A program made the translations under genes and the position numbers. Positions 1-12,421 of a DNA stretch of 12,708 bases are shown piece by piece. The DNA is taken from positions 1 through 12,708 of the forward strand of contig JAPLIF010000152.1 in assembly GCA_026389255.1 (NCBI GenBank), read 5' to 3'. This DNA is from Cyanobacteriota bacterium (GTDB lineage: Bacteria > Cyanobacteriota > Cyanobacteriia > PCC-6307 > Cyanobiaceae). Numbering within the stretch: the first letter of the stretch is position 1; every line of letters begins with the position of its first letter. Below the pieces are notes generated by a model. That model had not been told where the DNA came from. It did not search any database and was given only the letters and a program-made list of their open reading frames with translations.

Positions 1-119
1 TGATCCCGTTCACGATCCGCAGGAACCGGTTGTTCTGGCTCATGTCCAGAACGCCCTGGTAGGTCACGCCTTGCAGCATGGCGGTCCCACTGACGAATTC
101 CAGTCCGCCGCCACTGTCC
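1..119. repeat. 119-base perfect direct repeat, copy 1
   Basis: Positions 1-119 are identical to 781-899 with no mismatch. Identity ends at 120 (t) versus 900 (a). The period is exactly 780 bases, or 260 codons, so both copies are read in the same frame of the adhesin-like protein (DSGGGLEFVSGTAML and onward). Because copy 1 starts at the window edge, the true repeat may extend further left. Confidence 0.95.
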
Positions 120-899
120 TGGATCGTCCCGCCTGAGATGATGCCGTTGGTGGTCAGGAAGATCGTGCCCAGCGCCGCGCCGGCACCCACCTTAATCGTG
201 GCGCCCGTGTTGTCCTCGGACCCACCGATCGACACGCCGCCGCCCGAGCGCGTGATACTGTTCAGGGCCGCTGTGTTGAAACTGCCGTTCAGACCTAACC
301 CGCCATCGGTCATGCTGATCTTGCCGGCGTTCGACCAAGCTCCCGACAGGGTCAGGCTCGATTTGGCGGCGATGTTGATCGTACCGGTGTTGGTGATTGT
401 GGTCGCGCCGATCACCAGGCTGTCGCTATTGCTCACCAGGACCGTGCCGGTGTTGGTGAAGCGGTTGCCGTTGATATTGAGAATGCCGCCGGAGAATGCG
501 GCGGTGAGCAACCCCTGGTTCACGATGGCGTTGGCCGGGTTGCCCGACGATGATAACGACGCGCTGCGCCCGGCATGCACGACATTGAACTTGCTGCCCA
601 GGGTCAGCACCGCTCCGGGACCGACATCGTTGGCAAAGAGCAGCGATTGACCACCGCCGCCGCTGTTGCCGATGTTCAGGGTCGCGTTATCTAGTGTCGT
701 TTTGCCGTCGATGGAGAGGTTGACGTTCTCGCCCGTCAGATTGACCGTGCCGGCACCCGCGCCGTTCAGCCCGGTGAACGTGATCCCGTTCACGATCCGC
801 AGGAACCGGTTGTTCTGGCTCATGTCCAGAACGCCCTGGTAGGTCACGCCTTGCAGCATGGCGGTCCCACTGACGAATTCCAGTCCGCCGCCACTGTCC
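1..899 (-). CDS. Adhesin/autotransporter-type beta-strand repeat protein, internal fragment
   Basis: On the minus strand one frame stays open from 899 down to the window edge and has no stop, so the protein continues outside. It reads as a low-complexity beta-helix of Gly, Asn, Thr, Ser and Ala. Rungs such as NQGLLTAAFSGGILNING, FTNTGTVLVSN and ITNTGTINIAA recur every 20-30 residues. This is the style of autotransporter-associated beta-strand repeats and filamentous-haemagglutinin-like surface proteins, which are normally exported and lie on the cell surface. No signal peptide, start, or C-terminal barrel is present, so the secretion route cannot be told. Local GC is about 58 percent in the blocks I counted, against about 75 percent in a crtL block. 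The frame joins crtL directly at 899/900. The family style is clear, but whether the fragment belongs to this genome is doubtful. Confidence 0.7.
781..899. repeat. 119-base perfect direct repeat, copy 2, ending at the crtL junction
   Basis: This is the second copy of 1-119. Its right end coincides exactly with the point where the sequence turns into crtL. In copy 1 the adhesin continues past the same point (minus strand GTIQ then DSGGG). In copy 2 the preceding residues are lycopene cyclase (FVFM then DSGGG). The repeat is therefore either one unit of a tandem array or a join made by the assembler. Confidence 0.95.
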
Positions 900-1448
900 A
901 TGAACACGAATTGCCCCGGCTCGATCGGCGGGGCACTGAAGCGGCCGACGATGCCGTAGGCGGCCTGGCCGGCCACGGGCCCATCCTGACGCCTGCGCAC
1001 AAAGACGCTCTGGTGGCCGCTGGCATCCAGCAGCAACCGGGCCCGATGCTGGTGGCCCGCGGCGGTGGTGACCACGAAAGCCTGATCCTCCAGCTGCCAG
1101 GAGGCGGCCTGGCCCTGCAGCCAACGGACATCGGCGGCGGCGCAGCGGCCCAGCCCATGGGCCTGCAGGGCCGCTTTGTCGAAGAGGCCGTAGGCGCGGC
1201 CGTGGTGTAGTAGCCCATCCCCCCCTGGGGAGCTGCCCCCGGGGCCGAAGTAGCTGACCGTGTTGCTCCAGCGATGGGAGAGCAGGGAGCCGAGGCCAAG
1301 GGAATCCACCTCCTGGCACCAGATGCCGTAGGTGTTGACCCAGGGGGTGTGGGGATCGCCGGCCGCCAGGGCGGTGATCGCCAAGCCCCTCTCGGCCAGG
1401 TCAGCGGCGATGGCCAGGGCCGCCGGACCTGCGCCGATCACCAGAACA

Positions 1449-4147
<2,699 letters not shown>

Positions 4148-4210
4148 GCACAACCGCCTTGAATGAAGTCCACTTTATCGGCAGCCCGTACCCCCTCCCC
4201 CTGAGGCCCC
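4148..4210. promoter_or_regulatory. Short divergent region between gyrA and the HcyBio gene
   Basis: About 60 bases separate the two divergent starts, so both promoters, or at least one, should lie here. On the minus strand GATAAAGT, about 25-35 bases before the gyrA ATG, could be a -10 element, but there is no convincing -35. The C-rich stretch just before the plus-strand ATG carries no clear ribosome binding site. This rests on position more than on motifs. Confidence 0.25.
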
Positions 4211-5347
4211 ATGGCCCCCCTGAAACTGCCGCCCCGCAATGAATCCGAACTGCAGCGCCGCCAGAGTGAGGGCGAGCTGCGGGTGCGGACGGCGGCGGAA
4301 TTCCGGGCCCTCGTGGCCCATTCCGACCTGGCGGAGGCCTACCAGAGCACCGACGTGGTGGTGGCAGCCAACGCCGAATTCACCGACCAGGCCAGCCTGC
4401 ACCTAAGCCTGGGGCCCGCGGACCCGCCGATCCGCCTGCGGGACCCGGTGCTGGGGGGGGTTGGGGGACTGGCCAGTGGCTCCGGCGGCGACCTGCTGCT
4501 GCCGATCGCCGGGGCGGCCCAGGTTCTGGCCGATCTGCTGGCGGGGCAGGCGGTGGACTTCGGTGCCTCTGGGGAAGCCACCCTGCTGCAACCCCGCCGG
4601 GAGCTGCACACCCGCCTTGATCTCGAAGCCATCGGCGGCGGCCAACTGCTACTGCACCGCGGCATCGTCGAAAACGGCCTGGTGGCGGTTAGCAGCGCCC
4701 AGGGCCTGATCCGAACCCCCTGGGGCCCCCTGCTGGGCCCCTACGGCAACGCCCTCTACAGCTGCTCCGGGGCCGACAGCATCGGCCTGGCCATGCCGGG
4801 TCTGTCCCTGCTTGGCCCCGGCTCACCGGTCTTGGTGGGGGGCGCCATTGGCTGGGTGGTCGGCAGCGGCAGTGGCCACCAACCGGCGCCCCGGCGCCTG
4901 CCCAGCGGCCATGCCCGCAGCCCCGGTGCCGTGGCCGCCCTCAGCGTTGATCTGCATGGCCTCAGCCCCCGCTGGGTTCGGGCCTGCCATTTCGAAGGCC
5001 ATGGCAGCGCCCTGCTGGTGGCGATCGCCGCCCCGATTCCCCTGATCAGCCCCGCCGTGGCCCGCCAAATCGCCACAGACGACGGGGCCCTGGAGGCGCC
5101 GGTGCTGGATGTGTCGATCCCACGGCGCATCAAACCAAGTTTCGGCGGGGTGCCTTACAGCAGCCTGCGCCGGGGGGAAATCCGGGTGGATGGCCGCCCC
5201 ATTCCGGCAGCTCCCGCCCACAGCCCCCGGCTGGCCCAAGCCATGGCTTTGGAGTTGATCAGCCAACTCCAAAGCGGCGCCTTTCCCCTGAGGCTGCCGC
5301 TGCTGCCCCTGGGCTCCCGCCCCGGCCTGGTGCCGCTGCCCCCCTGA
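4211..5347 (+). CDS. HcyBio (DUF39) family protein, homocysteine-biosynthesis-like
   Basis: This 378-residue protein resembles the HcyBio/DUF39 family. In methanogens (MA1821 of Methanosarcina) a family member takes part in building sulfur into homocysteine from aspartate semialdehyde, working with a CBS/ferredoxin partner. Family-like stretches are [20 protein letters not shown] (26-45), [17 protein letters not shown] (70-86), [11 protein letters not shown] (179-189) and [18 protein letters not shown] (207-224). Only two cysteines are present, C185 in YSCSGAD and C259 in RACHFEG. C185 sits in a conserved glycine-rich context and is the better candidate for a persulfide-carrying residue. No CBS domain follows and no ferredoxin-like partner is nearby, so whether the cyanobacterial protein makes homocysteine is inference. 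The ATG at 4211 is the first plausible start. The family call rests on remembered motifs. Confidence 0.72.
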
Positions 5348-5475
5348 GCCAGCGCCAGGCCCGACTCCGGGGGAGGCATGGTCACGAAAAACACAAGCGC
5401 CATGAAAAAGGCAGAAAGCCACAAAGAAGTAGCCGAAAAGGGTCGGTAAGCTCCGGCAAGAGCCCTCCCCTCGCC

Positions 5476-6162
5476 ATGGCAGAAACGCCCCACGCTCCGG
5501 AGCCCCAGGACGACCAGGCCCCGCCTCCGATGGCGATCGGCTCCTATGGCGCCCCGGCCAGCAGCGCAGACCAGGCAGCGGCCCCAACGGAAACCGTGGC
5601 CGTGGCACCAGAAGAAAGCCCGGCTGAAACGCCTCCCCTTGCGATGGGTTATGCACCCGTCAGCAGCACCCCCGATCCCACCGACGGCGAGACCGCCACC
5701 GCCTTGCCCCCCCCGGCCGGCTCCTATGGCCTCGCCGGTTCCTATGGCCTCTCCAGCTCCTATGGAGCCTCAGCGACCCCAGCCACGGCCATCCCCACCA
5801 TCGGCTCCAGCGTCGAGGTTCCCCCCCTGGGGGGCGAGAACGGCGAAGGCGGCGAATGGGATCTGCTCAGCGGCAAGCTGCGCGACTGGTTGGACCGCAA
5901 GGACCTGGGCGGCTATTGGGAGCGCCTCGGCGGCCCTTTGCGGGCATCGGGGCTGCTCTTGGGCGGATTGATCCTGATCAAGCTCTATGAAGCCCTGCTC
6001 GAAACCCTCGACGACATCCCCCTGCTGCCCCGGCTGCTGCAGCTTGCCGGCCTGCTGTACCTGGTCAATTTCGGGTTTACCCACCTGATCAAGAGCCAGG
6101 ACCGGGAAAACCTCTATCAGATCTGGAAAAAACGCTGGCACGACTTCACCGGTCGCCCCTGA
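5476..6162 (+). CDS. CAAD-domain (CurT/CURT1-like) thylakoid membrane protein
   Basis: This 228-residue protein has a C-terminal CAAD domain (about 128-228), the domain found in cyanobacterial CurT, plant CURT1 and as an insertion in some cyanobacterial aminoacyl-tRNA synthetases. CURT1-type proteins bend thylakoid membranes. The order is a charged amphipathic helix (WDLLSGKLRDWLDRKDLGGYW), a first membrane segment around LLLGGLILIKLYEALL (160-175), a short loop DDIPLLPR, a second membrane segment LLQLAGLLYLVNFGFTHL, and a basic C-terminal helix. The first ~120 residues are Pro/Ala/Thr/Glu-rich and disordered in appearance, with GSYG or SSYG motifs at about 22, 82, 88 and 94. Synechocystis CurT, as I recall, is about 150 residues, so the long N-terminal extension is unusual. 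It stands alone between an HcyBio gene and guaB3, with about 128 bases of upstream space. Confidence 0.85.
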   Translation: MAETPHAPEPQDDQAPPPMAIGSYGAPASSADQAAAPTETVAVAPEESPAETPPLAMGYAPVSSTPDPTDGETATALPPPAGSYGLAGSYGLSSSYGASATPATAIPTIGSSVEVPPLGGENGEGGEWDLLSGKLRDWLDRKDLGGYWERLGGPLRASGLLLGGLILIKLYEALLETLDDIPLLPRLLQLAGLLYLVNFGFTHLIKSQDRENLYQIWKKRWHDFTGRP

Positions 6163-6188
6163 CCAGGGCCCGGAGTCCAGCGGACCTG

Positions 6189-6216
6189 TTGATAGTTTGG
6201 CCCCAACCGTTGTAAT
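6189..6216 (+). promoter_or_regulatory. Candidate sigma-70-type promoter for guaB3
   Basis: TTGATA at 6189-6194 and TGTAAT at 6211-6216 are separated by 16 bases, a good spacing for a housekeeping promoter. Transcription would begin near 6222-6224, that is, at or next to the TTG start codon at 6223. This suggests a leaderless or near-leaderless message. Confidence 0.45.
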
Positions 6217-6222
6217 CGCCCG

Positions 6223-7386
6223 TTGACCATCCAGCTCGGCCGTTCCCGAACCGTTCGGCGCGCCTACGGCATTGATGAGATCGCCCTTGTCCCTGGGGGC
6301 CGCACCGTCGATCCCGATGTGGTCGACAGCCGCTGGACCCTGGGGGGCATTGAGCGCGAGATCCCCATCATCGCCAGCGCCATGGATGGGGTCGTGGATC
6401 CCGCCATGGCCATCCAGCTCTCCCGTCTGGGTGCCATGGGCGTGCTGAACCTGGAGGGGGTGCAATGCCGCTACGACGATCCCAACCCGGTGCTCGATCG
6501 CATCACCGCCGTTGGTAAAGACGAGTTCGTGCCCCTGATGCAGGAGCTCTATGGCCAGCCGGTGCGGGAAGACCTGATCCGCCGCCGGATTGGCGAAATC
6601 CGCGAGGGGGGCGGCATCGCCGCCGTCAGTGCCACCCCGGTGGCGGCCATGCGCTTCGGCTCGATGCTGGCTGAGGCTGGAGCCCAGCTGCTGTTCGTGC
6701 AGGCCACGGTGGTCTCCACCGAGCACATCAGCGCCGAAGGCCGGACCAGCCTCGACCTGGCGGCCCTCTGCCGTGACCTGGGGCTGCCCGTCATCATCGG
6801 CAACTGCGTCACCTATGAGGTGACCCTCGACCTGATGCGCGCCGGTGCCGCCGGCGTGATGGTGGGCATCGGCCCCGGCGCCGCCTGCACCTCCCGCGGG
6901 GTGCTCGGCATCGGCATCCCCCAGGCCACCGCCGTGGCCGATTGTGCCGCCGCCCGCGACGACTTCGAAAAGGAAAGCGGCCGCCGGGTGCCCGTGATCG
7001 CCGACGGCGGCATCGTCACCGGCGGCGACATCTGCAAATGCCTGGCCTGCGGAGCCGATGCCGTGATGATCGGCTCCCCCATCGCCCGGGCCTCCGAAGC
7101 CCCCGGCCGGGGCTTCCACTGGGGCATGGCCACCCCCAGCCCGGTGCTGCCCCGCGGCACCCGCATCCGGGTCGGCACCACCGGCAGCCTGGAGCGCATC
7201 CTGCGGGGCCCGGCCGCCCTGGATGACGGCACCCAGAACCTGCTGGGGGCGATCCGCACCTCGATGGGCACCCTGGGAGCCCGCAGCCTGCGCGAAATGC
7301 AGCAGGTTGAAGTCGTGGTGGCGCCGTCGTTGTTGACCGAAGGCAAGGTTTATCAGAAAGCCCAGCAACTGGGCATGGGTAAATAG
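6223..7386 (+). CDS. guaB3: GuaB3-family IMP dehydrogenase
   Basis: This 387-residue TIM-barrel enzyme belongs to the IMPDH/GMP reductase superfamily, in the GuaB3 branch typical of cyanobacteria and actinobacteria. The expected reaction is NAD-dependent oxidation of IMP to XMP, the first committed step to GMP. The N-terminus MTIQLGRSRTVRRAYGIDEI is typical of the branch. IASAMDGVVDP (50-60) is a substrate-site strand. The catalytic loop is GIGPGAACTSRGVLGIG with the active-site Cys at 222. DGGI (261-264) binds the IMP phosphate region, and GTTGSLERILRGP is in the flap region. No CBS pair is inserted, which distinguishes it from classical GuaB. The start is TTG at 6223, chosen because the family N-terminus begins there and no ATG is available. 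There is no Shine-Dalgarno sequence before it. Yfr1 and its terminator follow. Confidence 0.93.
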   Translation: MTIQLGRSRTVRRAYGIDEIALVPGGRTVDPDVVDSRWTLGGIEREIPIIASAMDGVVDPAMAIQLSRLGAMGVLNLEGVQCRYDDPNPVLDRITAVGKDEFVPLMQELYGQPVREDLIRRRIGEIREGGGIAAVSATPVAAMRFGSMLAEAGAQLLFVQATVVSTEHISAEGRTSLDLAALCRDLGLPVIIGNCVTYEVTLDLMRAGAAGVMVGIGPGAACTSRGVLGIGIPQATAVADCAAARDDFEKESGRRVPVIADGGIVTGGDICKCLACGADAVMIGSPIARASEAPGRGFHWGMATPSPVLPRGTRIRVGTTGSLERILRGPAALDDGTQNLLGAIRTSMGTLGARSLREMQQVEVVVAPSLLTEGKVYQKAQQLGMGK

Positions 7387-7440
7387 TTCGTCCCAGCGCA
7401 AGACCCCTCTAGGGGCGCCGAGATTGGCGCTACGCTCAAG

Positions 7441-7508
7441 GTGTGGGGGCTACGGCTCGCACACTCCTCACACCCTCCGGCCCGGCGTTGCCGGGCTTTC
7501 TGTCTTTT
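7441..7508 (+). ncRNA. yfr1: Yfr1 small regulatory RNA
   Basis: The 12-base ACTCCTCACACC at 7463-7474 is the ultraconserved unpaired core of Yfr1, a cyanobacterial sRNA. It is flanked as expected. A 5' hairpin at 7443-7462 has GTG/CAC at its base, a G-G mismatch, then GGGC/GCTC closing on a UACG tetraloop (7451-7454). A 3' terminator hairpin is at 7480-7496 with a T-rich tail. The place between guaB and trxA is the known Yfr1 locus in Prochlorococcus and marine Synechococcus. Yfr1 acts by pairing its core with mRNAs, reportedly of outer-membrane porins, and is tied to stress tolerance. TACGCT at 7431-7436 could be the -10 box, giving a start near 7441-7443; no good -35 was found. The exact 5' end is inferred. 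Confidence 0.9.
7480..7508 (+). terminator. Rho-independent terminator (3' end of Yfr1)
   Basis: Seven base pairs, GCCCGGC (7480-7486) with GCCGGGC (7490-7496), close a GTT loop and are followed by TTTCTGTCTTTT. It ends Yfr1 and probably also any read-through from guaB3, since no better terminator lies between guaB3 and Yfr1. Confidence 0.85.
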
Positions 7509-7539
7509 CGCACCGCTTTCTTCGCCACCCCCCTGACAG

Positions 7540-7572
7540 CGCCACGCAACGGCCTGCAACGCTGCGTTGGCG
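7540..7572 (+). promoter_or_regulatory. Long imperfect hairpin upstream of trxA
   Basis: CGCCACGCAACG (7540-7551) pairs with CGCTGCGTTGGCG (7560-7572). It gives about eleven base pairs with one bulged T and one A-C mismatch around an 8-base loop. It ends 57 bases before the trxA ATG and has no T-tract, so it is not an intrinsic terminator. It may be a leader structure or protein-binding site if trxA transcription starts upstream of it. Candidate promoter elements between it and trxA (around TTGCTA near 7594) are poorly spaced. Confidence 0.4.
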
Positions 7573-7629
7573 ACACCAAGAATGGCAGGACTTCGTTGCT
7601 AGGTTCAATCGACTTAAAGACTTCCACGG

Positions 7630-7953
7630 ATGTCCAGCGCCACCCCCACCACTGACGCCACCTTCACCGCCGACGTGCTGAACAGCGACCAGCCCGTCCT
7701 CGTGGATTTCTGGGCTCCCTGGTGTGGCCCCTGCCGCATGGTGGCCCCGATTGTCGATGAAATGGCCAAGACCTACGAAGGCAAGATCAAGGTGTTCAAG
7801 CTGAACACCGACGAAAATCCCAACATCGCCAGCCAGTACGGCATTCGCAGCATTCCCACCCTGATGATCTTCAAGGGGGGCGAAAAGGTCGACACCGTTG
7901 TCGGAGCCGTGCCGGCCAACACCCTTTCCCAGGCGATCGGCAAGCACATCTGA
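7630..7953 (+). CDS. trxA: Thioredoxin (m-type)
   Basis: This is a complete 107-residue thioredoxin that reduces disulfides on target proteins in the cytoplasm. In cyanobacteria it is fed by ferredoxin- or NADPH-thioredoxin reductase. The active site is WCGPC (31-35) after the strand VLVDFWAP. The cis-proline is in SIPTLMIF (P76), and [13 protein letters not shown] is the following hairpin. The length is exactly typical and all key residues are present. The ATG at 7630 is preceded by about 120 bases containing a hairpin and an A/T-richer segment likely to hold its promoter. hisH follows after 31 bases, so the two may be co-transcribed. Placement next to Yfr1 is conserved in related cyanobacteria. 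Confidence 0.97.
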
Positions 7954-7984
7954 ACGCCGCCACTCTCGAAGCGCCCTTCGTGCC

Positions 7985-8614
7985 ATGACCGGACCCATTG
8001 GCCTGGTGGACTACGGCATGGGCAACCTGCACTCCGTGCAGCGGGCCTTCGAGCGGCTTGGAGCCGACGTGCGGCCCGTGCGGGGCCCCGAGGCCATCGA
8101 CGCTTGCCAGGCCCTGGTGCTGCCGGGCGTGGGTGCCTTTGATCCGGCCATGGAGCGGCTGCGGGCCGCCAAGCTGGTGGAGCCCCTACGGCGCTCCTGC
8201 GCGGCGGGCCGGCCGCTGCTTGGCATCTGCCTGGGCCTGCAATTGCTCTTTGAAGGCAGTGACGAGGGAACCTCCAGCGGCCTGGGCCTGGTGGGCGGCC
8301 GGGTTCAGGCCCTGCCCGCCTGGCCCGGCCAGCCCATTCCCCACATGGGCTGGGCCCCATTGCTGGCGGCCCGCCCCAGCCCCCTGCTGCCCCAGGGCAG
8401 CCCCCCCAACTGGGTCTATTTCGTCCACTCCTATGCGGCGGTCCCGACCGATGCCGATGGGGCCACGGCCCTAGTGGAGTGGGGCGACACCCCGGTGACA
8501 GCGGCCCTGTGGCAGGACAACATCGCCGCCTGCCAGTTCCACCCCGAAAAATCGGGTCGCACCGGCGAAGCCATGCTGCGCCGCTGGCTGGCCTGGGTGG
8601 CCGCCCAAGGTTGA
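7985..8614 (+). CDS. hisH: Imidazole glycerol phosphate synthase, glutaminase subunit HisH
   Basis: HisH releases ammonia from glutamine and passes it to HisF, which makes imidazole glycerol phosphate and AICAR, linking histidine and purine synthesis. The protein has 209 residues, the normal length. VDYGMGNLHSV (8-18) is the family's N-terminal signature. The nucleophile Cys82 lies in GICLGLQLLF, the oxyanion-side PGVGAF motif is at 47-52, and the His186/Glu188 pair is in QFHPEKSG. HMGWAPL and VYFVHSYAA are also typical. The ATG at 7985 gives the right N-terminus. The stop TGA at 8612-8614 overlaps the TTG start of rsmD (TTGA), indicating translational coupling. Confidence 0.97.
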   Translation: MTGPIGLVDYGMGNLHSVQRAFERLGADVRPVRGPEAIDACQALVLPGVGAFDPAMERLRAAKLVEPLRRSCAAGRPLLGICLGLQLLFEGSDEGTSSGLGLVGGRVQALPAWPGQPIPHMGWAPLLAARPSPLLPQGSPPNWVYFVHSYAAVPTDADGATALVEWGDTPVTAALWQDNIAACQFHPEKSGRTGEAMLRRWLAWVAAQG

Positions 8615-9192
8615 AGCGGAACCAGGGCGGCAATGGCCTGCGCCTCAGTGGCGGCCGCCGGCTGCGGAGCCCGCCCGGTCTGGTGGCCCGACCGACGGCC
8701 TCCCGGGTGCGGTTGGCGGTCATGAATCTGGTGGCGGACCAATTGCCGGGCTGCCGCTGGCTCGACCTCTGCTGCGGCAGCGGCGTAATGGCCTGCGAAG
8801 CCCTGATCCGGGGCGCGGCGTTGGCGGTGGCCGTCGAACAGGATCGACGCATCGCGGCGGTCGCCCGCGCCAACCTGGAGGCGGTGGCCCCGGAGCGGGC
8901 CCGGGTGATCTGCCAGGAAGCCCGCCTTTGGCTGGCGCCGGGCCCCACCAGCGATGAGCACCGCTTTGACTTGATCTACCTCGATCCGCCCTGGCCGGCC
9001 GGCCTCCATGGCCCCCTGACAGAGGCGGTGGCCTCCGGCGGCTGGCTGGCGCCGGGCGGCACCCTGCTCTGGGAATGCGACAGCAAGGCCCCCCCCGCCC
9101 TGCCGGCGGGCTGGCACGAACGCCGCCGCCGCACCTATGGCGGCAGCACCGTGGTGCTGCTGGAGTTGAACAAGCCAGGGGAATCTGACTGA
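8611..9192 (+). CDS. rsmD: RsmD-family 16S rRNA (guanine-N2) methyltransferase
   Basis: This 193-residue SAM-dependent methyltransferase belongs to the RsmD family; the E. coli member methylates G966 of 16S rRNA. The N-terminus LRLSGGRRLRSPPG, then VARPTASRVRLAVMNL, binds RNA in the family. Motif I is WLDLCCGSGVMACEAL (50-65) and motif IV is IYLDPPWPAG with DPPW at 125-128. AVEQDRRIAAVARANLE is the SAM-binding acidic strand. The start is TTG at 8611, overlapping the hisH stop. It gives a length close to E. coli RsmD, while an upstream extension to 8479 would only read through hisH in another frame. It lacks the usual LF/F at the motif I start, having LC, which is common in cyanobacteria. It is coupled to hisH. 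Confidence 0.9.
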   Translation: MKRNQGGNGLRLSGGRRLRSPPGLVARPTASRVRLAVMNLVADQLPGCRWLDLCCGSGVMACEALIRGAALAVAVEQDRRIAAVARANLEAVAPERARVICQEARLWLAPGPTSDEHRFDLIYLDPPWPAGLHGPLTEAVASGGWLAPGGTLLWECDSKAPPALPAGWHERRRRTYGGSTVVLLELNKPGESD

Positions 9193-9267
9193 CACCACCC
9201 AAATCTTCACCACGATCCTTAACCCCCCCAGTACGGAAGGCATCAAGGTCTGAAGTTTAAATGCCTT

Positions 9268-9283
9268 GCCGGAAGCGGCTTTT
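9268..9283 (+). terminator. Small terminator-like hairpin after rsmD
   Basis: GCCG (9268-9271) and CGGC (9276-9279) close a GAAG loop followed by TTTT. The stem is short, so strength is doubtful. Just upstream a second inverted repeat, AAGGCAT (9237-9243) and ATGCCTT (9261-9267), spans the convergent gap and could help end the opposing AraC transcript. Confidence 0.4.
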
Positions 9284-10365
9284 CATGGTGCCGAAGCAGC
9301 GCCAAGGGGCTCAACGGCGGGCTGGTTCAGGAAACGGCCCCGACGCAGCACCTCAGAGGGTTTGCGTTGATAGGCCCTTTGGAAATCCACACTGAATTGG
9401 CTCAAGGAGCGATAGCCGCAGGCCGTGGCCACGCCCAGGACACTCTCACCCTGCATGGGATTTTGCAGGCGATCCAAGGCCGTGGCCAGGCGCTGCTGGC
9501 GCACCCACTGCATCGGACTGCAATCAAAACGGGCCCGGAAGGCGTAGTGCAGGGCCCGGCGGGAATACATGCTCCGGCACTCGAGGTCACTGAGGCAAAG
9601 CCGGCGATGCAGGTTGAGGCGGATGAAATCCACCAGGTCATCGATACAGGCATCTGTGCGTTTGCGATCCGCCAACGCTGCTAAAGGCTGCTCCCCATCG
9701 CGCAGGTCGGCGAAGACCAAGGCCGCCAACAGCCGATAAATCTGCTCTTCGAGATTCAGGCTCTGGACCAGCCCCTCCCCCTGATGGGCGATGGCACTGA
9801 TAAAGGGCAGCAAGCGACTGAGGGCCTCCAGGAGGCCGCGGCCAGCCAGATCCCGCTGGTCAGGCAGGGGCAGTGGCTGGTGCAAAACGCTTTCGGCGGG
9901 GCCGGCCGGCTGCCAATGGGCTCCCCCCATGGCCCGGGCCGTACGCAGCAGGCGATGGGGATCGGCCAGAAAGCAGGAGCTGCTGCTGCTGAGGCTGGTG
10001 GTGATCAAGCTCCAGGGATGACCCGGTCCGATCAGGCCTTCACCGGGGTTGAGGGCCAGGCAGGCACTGCCCTGGCGCCACTCGGCCCGGCCCCCATGTT
10101 GCAGCAACACGCAATGGCCTTCGTGCCCGTGGGTCTCCAGTAGCAGGGGTGATCCGAGCCAGGCGGCCAGGTGCAGGGCCCCGAAATTTAGACAGCCATT
10201 TTGATGCCACCAATCCCCATTGCCTTCGAGGGCCCGGATCTGGCGGATCGGCAGCGCCTTAGAGAGAGCCTGGCCGCTCTGGACAGGGTCGGCACAGGGG
10301 GATAGGCGCTCGCTCAGGGGGTGGTTCAGGGCAACAACGGGTAGGTCAACGAAGGGCGACCCCAC
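9283..10365 (-). CDS. AraC-family transcriptional regulator
   Basis: This 360-residue protein ends in an AraC/XylS DNA-binding domain (about 238-345). A first helix-turn-helix is in LCLSDLECRSMYSRRALHYA. A second carries the family signature GYRSLSQFSVDFQRAYQRKP (317-336), with SEVLR following. PMQWVRQQRLATALDRL is the linker helix. The N-terminal ~220 residues probably form a cupin-like effector-binding/dimer domain (LLLETHGHEGHCVLLQHGG region), with a serine run at 125-131; the ligand is unknown. The start is GTG at 10365 (MGSPFVDLP). The gene is convergent with rsmD. GC is visibly lower than in neighbouring genes, so acquisition is possible. Its promoter may lie just upstream or in the AT-rich island about 460 bases away. 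The family call is secure; the target genes are not known. Confidence 0.88.
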   Translation of the reverse strand: MGSPFVDLPVVALNHPLSERLSPCADPVQSGQALSKALPIRQIRALEGNGDWWHQNGCLNFGALHLAAWLGSPLLLETHGHEGHCVLLQHGGRAEWRQGSACLALNPGEGLIGPGHPWSLITTSLSSSSSCFLADPHRLLRTARAMGGAHWQPAGPAESVLHQPLPLPDQRDLAGRGLLEALSRLLPFISAIAHQGEGLVQSLNLEEQIYRLLAALVFADLRDGEQPLAALADRKRTDACIDDLVDFIRLNLHRRLCLSDLECRSMYSRRALHYAFRARFDCSPMQWVRQQRLATALDRLQNPMQGESVLGVATACGYRSLSQFSVDFQRAYQRKPSEVLRRGRFLNQPAVEPLGAASAP

Positions 10366-10395
10366 ACGCAGAAATTAAATCTGCCTTGCCCCCTT

Positions 10396-10791
10396 TTGAT
10401 CCCTACATGGGGGCAATCAAGGGCCAAAAAGGGGCACCAGGCCTATCCCTTTGCGCTTCAGTGGAAGGATTGCGCGATTCAGTCAATGGAGGGCCCCATG
10501 GTGCCGGACGCACCCAAGGCACAAGACGAGATTGTTTTACGAATTGATTCGAGTAGCCCGCTGGCTAGGGCGGCGCCATGGGCCGATCCTTGCCGGAGTG
10601 CCTTGGCATCCGCAGACCATTCGCCACCGCCGTTGATCCGTTTGGACCGCGAAGTCAGGCAAAAACCTAAATGTAAGAAAGCCTCTCAGCAACCCAAGGT
10701 TTTAGAACCTTCCACTTGGACTTTCGGCAAGAAGTCGAAAATCTCAAGGATCGATGGGATCACCAGAGTCATCCAAAAAAATAACTCCTAA
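10396..10791 (+). CDS. Doubtful hypothetical small protein
   Basis: An open frame of 131 codons runs from TTG (10396), or 100 codons from an ATG at 10489. The product has no recognisable family, has a basic C-terminal third (KPKCKKASQQPK, FGKKSKISR), and shows no membrane segment. Codon third positions are mixed rather than strongly G/C as in the neighbouring genes, which argues against a long-resident gene. No ribosome binding site is evident. It is listed because nothing else explains this stretch. Confidence 0.22.
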   Translation: MIPTWGQSRAKKGHQAYPFALQWKDCAIQSMEGPMVPDAPKAQDEIVLRIDSSSPLARAAPWADPCRSALASADHSPPPLIRLDREVRQKPKCKKASQQPKVLEPSTWTFGKKSKISRIDGITRVIQKNNS

Positions 10792-10846
10792 CCATAACGC
10801 CGACTAGCCAGCACTTAAAGTCAAATATCTTTTTTGTTCAAAAACA

Positions 10847-10874
10847 ATAAAATTATGTTTGAATTATAAAATTA
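10847..10874. repeat. Two direct copies of ATAAAATTA, 19-base period
   Basis: The 9-base ATAAAATTA occurs at 10847-10855 and 10866-10874, in the same orientation and 19 bases apart, about two helical turns. Tandem half-sites at this spacing suit dimeric regulators, including AraC-type proteins. In so AT-rich a stretch chance is a real alternative. Confidence 0.4.
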
Positions 10875-10883
10875 CCAACATCC

Positions 10884-10922
10884 TAAAAATCGGCTACAGG
10901 TTTGACCCGTGCACACAGCCCG
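10884..10922 (-). terminator. Weak terminator-like structure after petG
   Basis: Read on the minus strand downstream of the petG stop, CGGGCT pairs with AGCCG (one bulged G) around a loop of about 21 bases and is followed by ATTTTTA. The stem is short and the loop long, so this is only a candidate. Confidence 0.3.
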
Positions 10923-10936
10923 TCAGGCATAGCTGA

Positions 10937-11050
10937 TCAGGCCCCCAGGCTGCCGCCACGGCGGTACTGGATCCAGGCTGCCATGAAAAGGCCGGCGAGG
11001 GTGACCGGGATCAGACCGAGGACGATGCCACAGAGCAGGGGTTCGATCAT
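10937..11050 (-). CDS. petG: Cytochrome b6f complex subunit PetG
   Basis: This 37-residue single-span membrane protein, [20 protein letters not shown] followed by [17 protein letters not shown], matches PetG in length and sequence. PetG is one of the small subunits needed to assemble or stabilise the cytochrome b6f complex, which carries electrons between plastoquinone and plastocyanin or cytochrome c6 in the thylakoid. One membrane helix covers about residues 4-28, ending in the conserved QYRRG basic turn. The ATG at 11050 and TGA at 10937-10939 are unambiguous. It diverges from the cytM-like gene with 35 bases between the starts, so the promoters must overlap. Confidence 0.95.
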
Positions 11051-11085
11051 TGAGAATCAGGGGATGGTCGTGGCGTCATTGTTCC

Positions 11086-11577
11086 ATGATCAGCGCCCCC
11101 AGTCATGCCGCTTCAAGCTTTGTGACCCGTCTGCCGCCCATCGCTCCCGCTGAGTTCTCCGGAACCTCCGGGTCTGGCGCCCTTCTGCCCGCGGCGCCCG
11201 GGCCCCCTCAAGAGGTCAGTGATGGTTGGCCTGGACGGCGCCTACTCGGCCTGATGCTGGCCCTGGCCCTGACGGCTGGATTGGTGTTGGCGGCGTTCCT
11301 GCAAGCGGGCCACCGGGACCCCTATAGCCGCGCCACCTTGGCCCTGAAAGGGGATGACGTCAGCGGCGGCAAGCTCTTCCGCCTCAATTGCGCCGGCTGC
11401 CACGGCCTGGCCGCCCAGGGGCTGGTGGGTCCCAACCTCCATGGTGTCGATCACCGCAAGAACGATCGTCAGTTGATCCAGCAGGTCATCAGCGGCCGCA
11501 CGCCGCCCATGCCCCGCTTCCAGCCGGATCCCCAGGCCATGGCTGACCTGCTGGCGTTCCTGCATCACCTGGCCTGA
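11086..11577 (+). CDS. cytM: Membrane-anchored c-type cytochrome, cytochrome cM-like
   Basis: This 163-residue protein has one membrane segment (RLLGLMLALALTAGLVLAAF, about 52-71) acting as an uncleaved anchor or signal. A small class I cytochrome c domain follows, with the haem-binding CAGCH at 102-106 and the axial methionine in PPMPRF (M142). Cytochrome cM is conserved in cyanobacteria and is linked to stress and to balancing photosynthetic and respiratory electron flow. The anchor, the domain size and placement beside petG favour CytM over cytochrome c6. The ATG at 11086 gives about 50 Pro/Ser/Ala-rich residues before the anchor, longer than usual; GTG at 11125 would be shorter. It is followed after 13 bases by the methyltransferase gene, so probably an operon. 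Confidence 0.85.
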   Translation: MISAPSHAASSFVTRLPPIAPAEFSGTSGSGALLPAAPGPPQEVSDGWPGRRLLGLMLALALTAGLVLAAFLQAGHRDPYSRATLALKGDDVSGGKLFRLNCAGCHGLAAQGLVGPNLHGVDHRKNDRQLIQQVISGRTPPMPRFQPDPQAMADLLAFLHHLA

Positions 11578-11590
11578 ATCACCCCCAGCC

Positions 11591-12421
11591 ATGACCCTGA
11601 ATCTGGTGCTGGTGGAGCCTGCCGGCGCCCGCAATCTGGGCAGCGTCGCGCGCCTGTGTGCCAATTTCGGGGTGGCCGAACTCCGCCTGGTGGCGCCCCG
11701 CTGTGATCCGCTGGGGGCGGAGGCCCGCCAGATGGCCGTCCATGCCCAGGCCGTGCTGGAGACGGCCCCCCAGTTCGCCGACCTGGCGGCCGCCTTGGCC
11801 GATTGCGGCCGGGTGGTGGCCGCCACCGGCCGCCTGGAGGGGGCGCCGCTGCCCCTGCACGGCCCGGCCGCGGCCCTGGATTGGCTGGGGGCGGGCGAAG
11901 CGCCGGCGGCCGAAGCCCCTGGGGACGAAGCCGCTGGGGGTGGGGAGGGGGCCCCAGGCCCCCTGCCGTTGGCCCTGGTGTTTGGCCGCGAGGACCGGGG
12001 CCTGAGCAACGACGAACTGCTCATGGCCGGCCGGTTGCTGCGCCTCGATGCCGGCTCCGCCTACGACTCCCTCAACCTCTCCCATGCGGTGGCGGTGGTC
12101 CTGCACGAGTGGCACCAACGGCGCGGCCAGACGGTGGCCCCCCTGGGGTCCGCCGCCGCTGGGGCCGGAGCGATGGTTGCCGGGGCCTTTCCCGATCCGG
12201 CCGCCCGCGCCGCCCTGGAGGCCGCCCTGGGGGATGCGGAAGCCCTGCTGCTGGAGGTGGGGTTCCTGCTACCCCACACCGCCCGGGCCCGCATGGCCAA
12301 GCTGCGGGCCCTGCTGCAGCGCGCCCAGCCCGACAGCGGCGAGGTGGCCCTGCTGCGGGGCATGGTGGCCCAGTTGCGCTGGGCGGCGCGGCACCCTTGC
12401 CCGCCCGGGGCTCCCCTTTAG
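11591..12421 (+). CDS. SpoU/TrmJ-like RNA 2'-O-methyltransferase
   Basis: This 276-residue protein is in the SPOUT (TrmH group 1, TrmJ-like) class, which methylates ribose 2'-OH in tRNA or rRNA through a trefoil-knot SAM site. Motif 1 is AGARNLGSVARLCANFG (11-27) with the key Asn15 and Arg21. Motif 2 is ALVFGREDRGLSNDEL (128-143), and motif 3 is YDSLNLSHAVAVVLHEW (158-174). A Gly/Ala/Glu/Pro-rich insertion of about 25 residues (100-124) sits between motif 1 and motif 2 and looks lineage-specific. The C-terminal extension, LLPHTARARMAKLRALLQRA, is the usual TrmJ-type helical tail. The ATG at 11591 fits the family start. The target nucleotide cannot be read from sequence. Confidence 0.92.
   Translation: MTLNLVLVEPAGARNLGSVARLCANFGVAELRLVAPRCDPLGAEARQMAVHAQAVLETAPQFADLAAALADCGRVVAATGRLEGAPLPLHGPAAALDWLGAGEAPAAEAPGDEAAGGGEGAPGPLPLALVFGREDRGLSNDELLMAGRLLRLDAGSAYDSLNLSHAVAVVLHEWHQRRGQTVAPLGSAAAGAGAMVAGAFPDPAARAALEAALGDAEALLLEVGFLLPHTARARMAKLRALLQRAQPDSGEVALLRGMVAQLRWAARHPCPPGAPL

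Follow-up and report, generated by a model that had tools for sequence, protein, structure and literature searches.

An in-frame fusion of lycopene cyclase to a repeat module in a cyanobacterial MAG is very probably an assembly product

Introduction

Metagenome assemblers can leave direct terminal repeats whose length matches a k-mer size, as described in the CheckV paper (PMC8116208). A length of 119 is on the list of k-mer sizes given for MEGAHIT in PMC11510465. It does not appear in the settings stated in three other papers: those in PMC9878933 run from k = 49 to k = 149 without 119, and 119 is also missing from those in PMC7469290 and PMC11780533. Another kind of artifact arises in amplified metagenomes, where reads that join gene fragments, occasionally from different species, have been described (PMC3642703).

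Here we analyze a contig that ends in an exact repeat of 119 bases and that appears to fuse two unrelated proteins. The window (the whole stretch of DNA that we analyzed, 12,708 nt) is the entire contig C264 of a cyanobacterial MAG, which has 376 contigs and 2.10 Mb of sequence and is 78.8% complete. On the minus strand, a single open frame (1561..2) runs from the lycopene cyclase CrtL into a repeat module of 260 residues. A sequence-only reading of this DNA had reported that one frame passes from CrtL into the repeat at 899/900 without a stop, and this is correct. Judging from the sequences, we think that the join at 899/900 is very probably a product of assembly and that the apparent fusion is very probably artifactual.

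Results

The crtL gene is split between two contigs

The N-terminal part of crtL (lycopene beta-cyclase) is at 893..1480 on the minus strand. The crtL side of the open frame matches Lycopene_cycl from Pfam as well as the NF045687 model for CrtL (positions 2-180 of 410, with the match at 893-1453; E = 3.5e-70, 237-238 bits). The curated cut-off for this model is 500 bits, and no full-length match above 500 bits was found, as the gene is divided over two contigs. The C-terminal half is in the same MAG, at C41:2774-3214 (model positions 262-408, 206 bits). C41 has only 3214 bases, so it stops inside crtL. In other words, a search of the genome for the missing half, which had been proposed as a check in the sequence-only reading, found it at the end of another contig.

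We compared both contigs to three relatives (L005, L006, and L007, taken from genome_contigs), each of which has an intact crtL. On the intact gyrA-crtL loci of these relatives, C264 and C41 are collinear, with a gap between them of 244 bases (L005) or 243 bases (L006 and L007). From 896 to 4076, the window aligns to L006 without gaps, at 93.5%. In the near relatives, as in the window, crtL adjoins gyrA, which is a trait of the locus and does not define the CrtL family. The order of the two genes anchors 896-4151 in the cyanobacterium.

The sequence is cyanobacterial as far as GGAC (896..899, minus strand). Around the join, the window has ATGGACAGT, while L006 and L007 have ATGGACTAC and L005 has ATGGATTAC. 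The alignment to relatives confirms an earlier remark that GGAC is common to both sides of the join, that is, to crtL and to the module; these four bases belong to the 119-base repeat. A drop in GC content at the join had also been claimed. The direction of this change is right, but it is smaller than the drop from 75% to 58% that had been given: GC content is 71.7% at 900-1199 and 62.3% at 600-899.

Imperfect inverted arms of 13-14 bases lie about 230 bases to either side of the join (654-668 and 1128-1142). The pairs I3 and I4, which have such arms and overlap each other, are the only listed inverted pairs that span the join. These arms probably reflect chance in a GC-rich sequence.

The missing middle of crtL might be absent from the assembly. 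We searched with a 341-base stretch of L006 that covers the hole, and among the 40 of 81 candidates that were scored, only positions 1-46 and 290-339 were found in the MAG. Similarly, positions 181-261 of the NF045687 model were not found in the searchable assembly. Of the 61 contigs that we fetched, 17 were masked, all of them under 3000 bases, so short contigs of the MAG may have escaped these searches. There is a third match to the CrtL model in this MAG, on C82, but it is weak (24.5 bits) and is confined to the N-terminal part of the model (positions 2-144). We took it to be another flavoprotein and not crtL.

In most of the other genomes of the genus that we searched (22 of 24), a crtL gene scores above the family's cut-off. 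The remaining two genomes (G390 and G394) have pieces of crtL only, which begin at most 60 bases from the start of a contig. Overall, crtL is split by assembly and is not evidently broken in the organism.

A different explanation is that a real rearrangement took place, in which a segment of a surface-protein gene entered crtL by insertion or recombination and broke it, whether or not the cell makes a fused protein. The open frame across the join fits with this, but a third of random joins on the correct strand would keep the frame as well, so it is weak evidence. The C-terminal half of crtL on C41 is still an open frame and is similar to its relatives, as expected if the gene is intact. Also, the sole listed inverted pairs over the join are the imperfect arms of 13-14 bases, which look like chance. 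We consider a real rearrangement to be very unlikely. The sequence-only reading had offered, as its alternative, that a rearrangement broke crtL in the organism; given the C-terminal half on C41 and the intact genes of the relatives, there is little to be said for it.

The 119-base repeat is bounded by the join and by the contig end

The first 119 bases of the window are identical to 781-899, at a spacing of 780 bases. On the minus strand, the first copy (781..899) begins at the join, and the second copy (1..119) reaches the very end of the contig. We read the second copy as the assembler's overlap of length k. The bases immediately upstream of the two copies are different (GTTCAT vs. GATCCA). 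It had been noted previously that crtL meets the repeat exactly where the 119-base identity ends. This holds, and the other copy ends at base 1 of the contig. If a real rearrangement were responsible, then its breakpoint must have hit the border of the repeat exactly, with the other copy exactly at the contig's end. A walk through an assembly graph would explain why the repeat ends at both the join and base 1, and a rearrangement does not, which is why we favor an assembly origin.

The contig could have been assembled as follows. Within crtL, the cyanobacterium's coverage would have given out, leaving as the sole extension a chimeric molecule or read with the four shared bases GGAC. That extension would lead into a surface-protein gene from another organism. 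If the gene contains head-to-tail modules of 780 bases, a de Bruijn graph with nodes of 119 bases would represent them as a loop. The walk would circle the loop once and would halt when it met its entry node again. The result would be a direct repeat of 119 bases, with one copy that begins at the join and another that finishes where the contig does. Because a walk that starts from a flank stops at the entry to the loop, the coincidence of the repeat's border with the join and with the contig's end would be a necessity instead of an accident. From the sequence, this exact route, with a chimeric read into another organism's array, seems fairly probable to us.

As an illustration, we simulated a toy walk that enters a tandem array from the crtL flank. 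The terminal repeat had a length of k-1 for all 7 values of k that we tried, and the toy walk was identical to 1-1600 of the window only if the node length was 119. The window itself supplied both the flank and the repeating unit, so the simulation tests just the length of the repeat and the end point.

When a graph assembler makes a join, at least one read should span it. The assembler should therefore have had a read over 899/900, so a chimeric molecule or read would be the likeliest link. The hole in crtL suggests that coverage was lost over the following 243 bases, in which case the assembler would have had no way to extend the contig other than through the chimera. Alternatively, the misjoin might have been purely computational: a local-assembly or gap-closing step might have joined the two sequences at a chance overlap of four bases, with no chimeric molecule. 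This would fit with the sharing of just GGAC and with the crtL side ending at a hole in the assembly, but a standard k-mer join needs a longer overlap than four bases. We view a purely computational misjoin as somewhat unlikely. It is also a variant of the artifact, so its probability overlaps with that of our preferred explanation, in which a chimeric read led into the array.

We did not find any other overlaps between contig ends, from 18 to 400 bases, in the 45 readable contigs, so the node length of 119 comes from the repeat itself and has no independent confirmation. At the far end of C264, the last 300 bases were found nowhere else in the genome (40 of 139 candidates were scored).

Two other features of this MAG (G000) concern contig structure. 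An exact repeat of 69 bases is shared by C30 (L060, 51-119), near the start of that contig, and C34 (L064, 3916-3984). C255 (L071) has 16 consecutive N at 5238-5253, within the contig, perhaps owing to masking or to a gap in a scaffold.

The module is probably foreign to this genome

One turn of the module, with 780 bases or 260 codons, is at 120..899 on the minus strand. It resembles the tandem modules of surface proteins and is foreign to crtL. In frame, it is a repeat of 260 residues that is rich in glycine and asparagine. By itself, the sequence after the join (2-898) did not match any model from Pfam or NCBIfam at E = 0.001, and the 8 homologues of the module that we scanned had no matches to Pfam above the cut-off. 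The sequence-only reading had called it an adhesin repeat. The tandem modules are borne out and a known adhesin or autotransporter domain is not, so the label goes by the look of the sequence only.

In a large protein collection, 12 proteins match the module (E cut-off of 0.001); Lycopene_cycl is present in the window's own protein and in none of the others. When a doubled module was used as the target, all 11 of the other homologues aligned over the border between modules. The clearest case is P0003, in which a complete copy (84-372) is followed by the start of another (374-485). Its period is about 290 residues (vs. 260 in the window), so the length of the module varies. Because the homologues align over the border, the 780 bases can be read as a tandem array that has collapsed to one turn. 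For the same reason, the junction at 119/120 is natural for this family of modules, and the one at 899/900 is not.

In this MAG, searches by DNA and by protein both place the module at a single locus. It was not found in any of the 41 other genomes of the genus, which also argues against a real rearrangement. Among 385 other genomes from the phylum, there was a single match, which is weak (E = 8e-5, 36%). Neither the module nor P0003 had a match in a plasmid collection. In our view, the module is probably foreign both to the crtL locus and to this genome. It is extremely unlikely that this is a cyanobacterium whose crtL was truly interrupted by a laterally acquired gene for a tandem-repeat surface protein, with the N-terminal half fused in frame.

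The module's GC content (62.6%) is inside the range of the sampled contigs. We compared the module turn to 304 pieces of 780 bases from 44 contigs of this genome: 5 pieces exceeded its dinucleotide distance, and none had higher CpG. One piece of gyrA was also above all 304 pieces in CpG, and the module's codon usage is ordinary for the genome, so composition gives mild support only for a foreign origin. Since 71 of the 113 long ORFs have scores no higher than the module's, we set aside codon usage as an uninformative test of foreign origin. The ordinary codon usage is compatible with a real rearrangement as well.

Another variant of the artifact is that the module, although falsely joined to crtL, is from the same cyanobacterium, either from the missing 21% or so of its genome or from the masked short contigs. 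(The probability of this variant overlaps with that of our preferred explanation.) The incompleteness of the MAG, the codon usage, and the GC content would all allow this. The lack of the module in the other 41 genomes of the genus, the one weak match among 385 genomes from the phylum, and a dinucleotide distance that few pieces of this genome exceed all speak against it. We think that it is unlikely, and we prefer another organism as the source of the module.

A second break in the contig, within gyrA

The open frame for gyrA (1449..4151, minus strand) has an altered N-terminus. Alignment to relatives shows a deletion of 70 bases and a change of frame at 4076..4077 (minus strand). The 70 bases are present in all five of the aligned relatives (L005, L006, L007, L009, and L026). 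As a result of the deletion, the frame changes and an N-terminal stretch that the five have in common is lost, and the listed open frame begins at a GTG in another frame. The four nearest genomes of the genus (G403, G430, G386, and G390) also have the spacer at this site. Elsewhere in this genome, we did not find the missing piece as a whole. The sole other match to the missing stretch, on C142 (81%), is probably a related topoisomerase gene. As gyrA is an essential gene, the deletion is easier to explain as an error in a read or in the assembly than as biology. It is likely to be a second error of this kind, which would fit with a thinly covered contig, and it adds to the case for an assembly origin of the join.

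Elsewhere in the window, at 4211-12421, Pfam identifies ordinary genes: the homocysteine biosynthesis enzyme HcyBio, a CAAD domain protein, a protein with an IMP dehydrogenase domain, a thioredoxin, a glutamine amidotransferase, Cons_hypoth95, an AraC-type regulator, a cytochrome c, and a SpoU methylase. No tRNA was found in the window.

Discussion

The origin that the sequence-only reading had preferred, in assembly or in a chimeric molecule, is supported by the C-terminal half of crtL on C41, by the intact crtL of the relatives, and by where the repeat ends. The case matters only as a caution. The fused protein of 499 residues, with Lycopene_cycl, appears in the protein collection (as P0001). 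A reader could wrongly take it for a new domain architecture, or could conclude that carotenoid cyclization has been lost. A direct repeat of length k, with one copy at the end of a contig and the other starting from a foreign join, is a signature that would be easy to screen for in MAGs.

How does C264 compare to known systems? Relative to the CrtL family (NF045687), C264 has positions 2-180 and C41 has positions 262-408, and the module that follows the join is outside of the family. The chimeras described in PMC3642703 are similar in that two unrelated fragments are joined. The account given there concerns amplified metagenomes, with a stem-loop model, and it is by the joined fragments alone that we liken C264 to it. 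The terminal repeats in the CheckV paper (PMC8116208) are similar in that they are exact, have a k-like length, and place one copy at the end of the contig. The examples given in that paper have lengths of 55, 77, or 99 and arise from circular templates. In contrast, just one end of C264 is on the loop, and the other copy of its repeat is internal, where the foreign flank enters.
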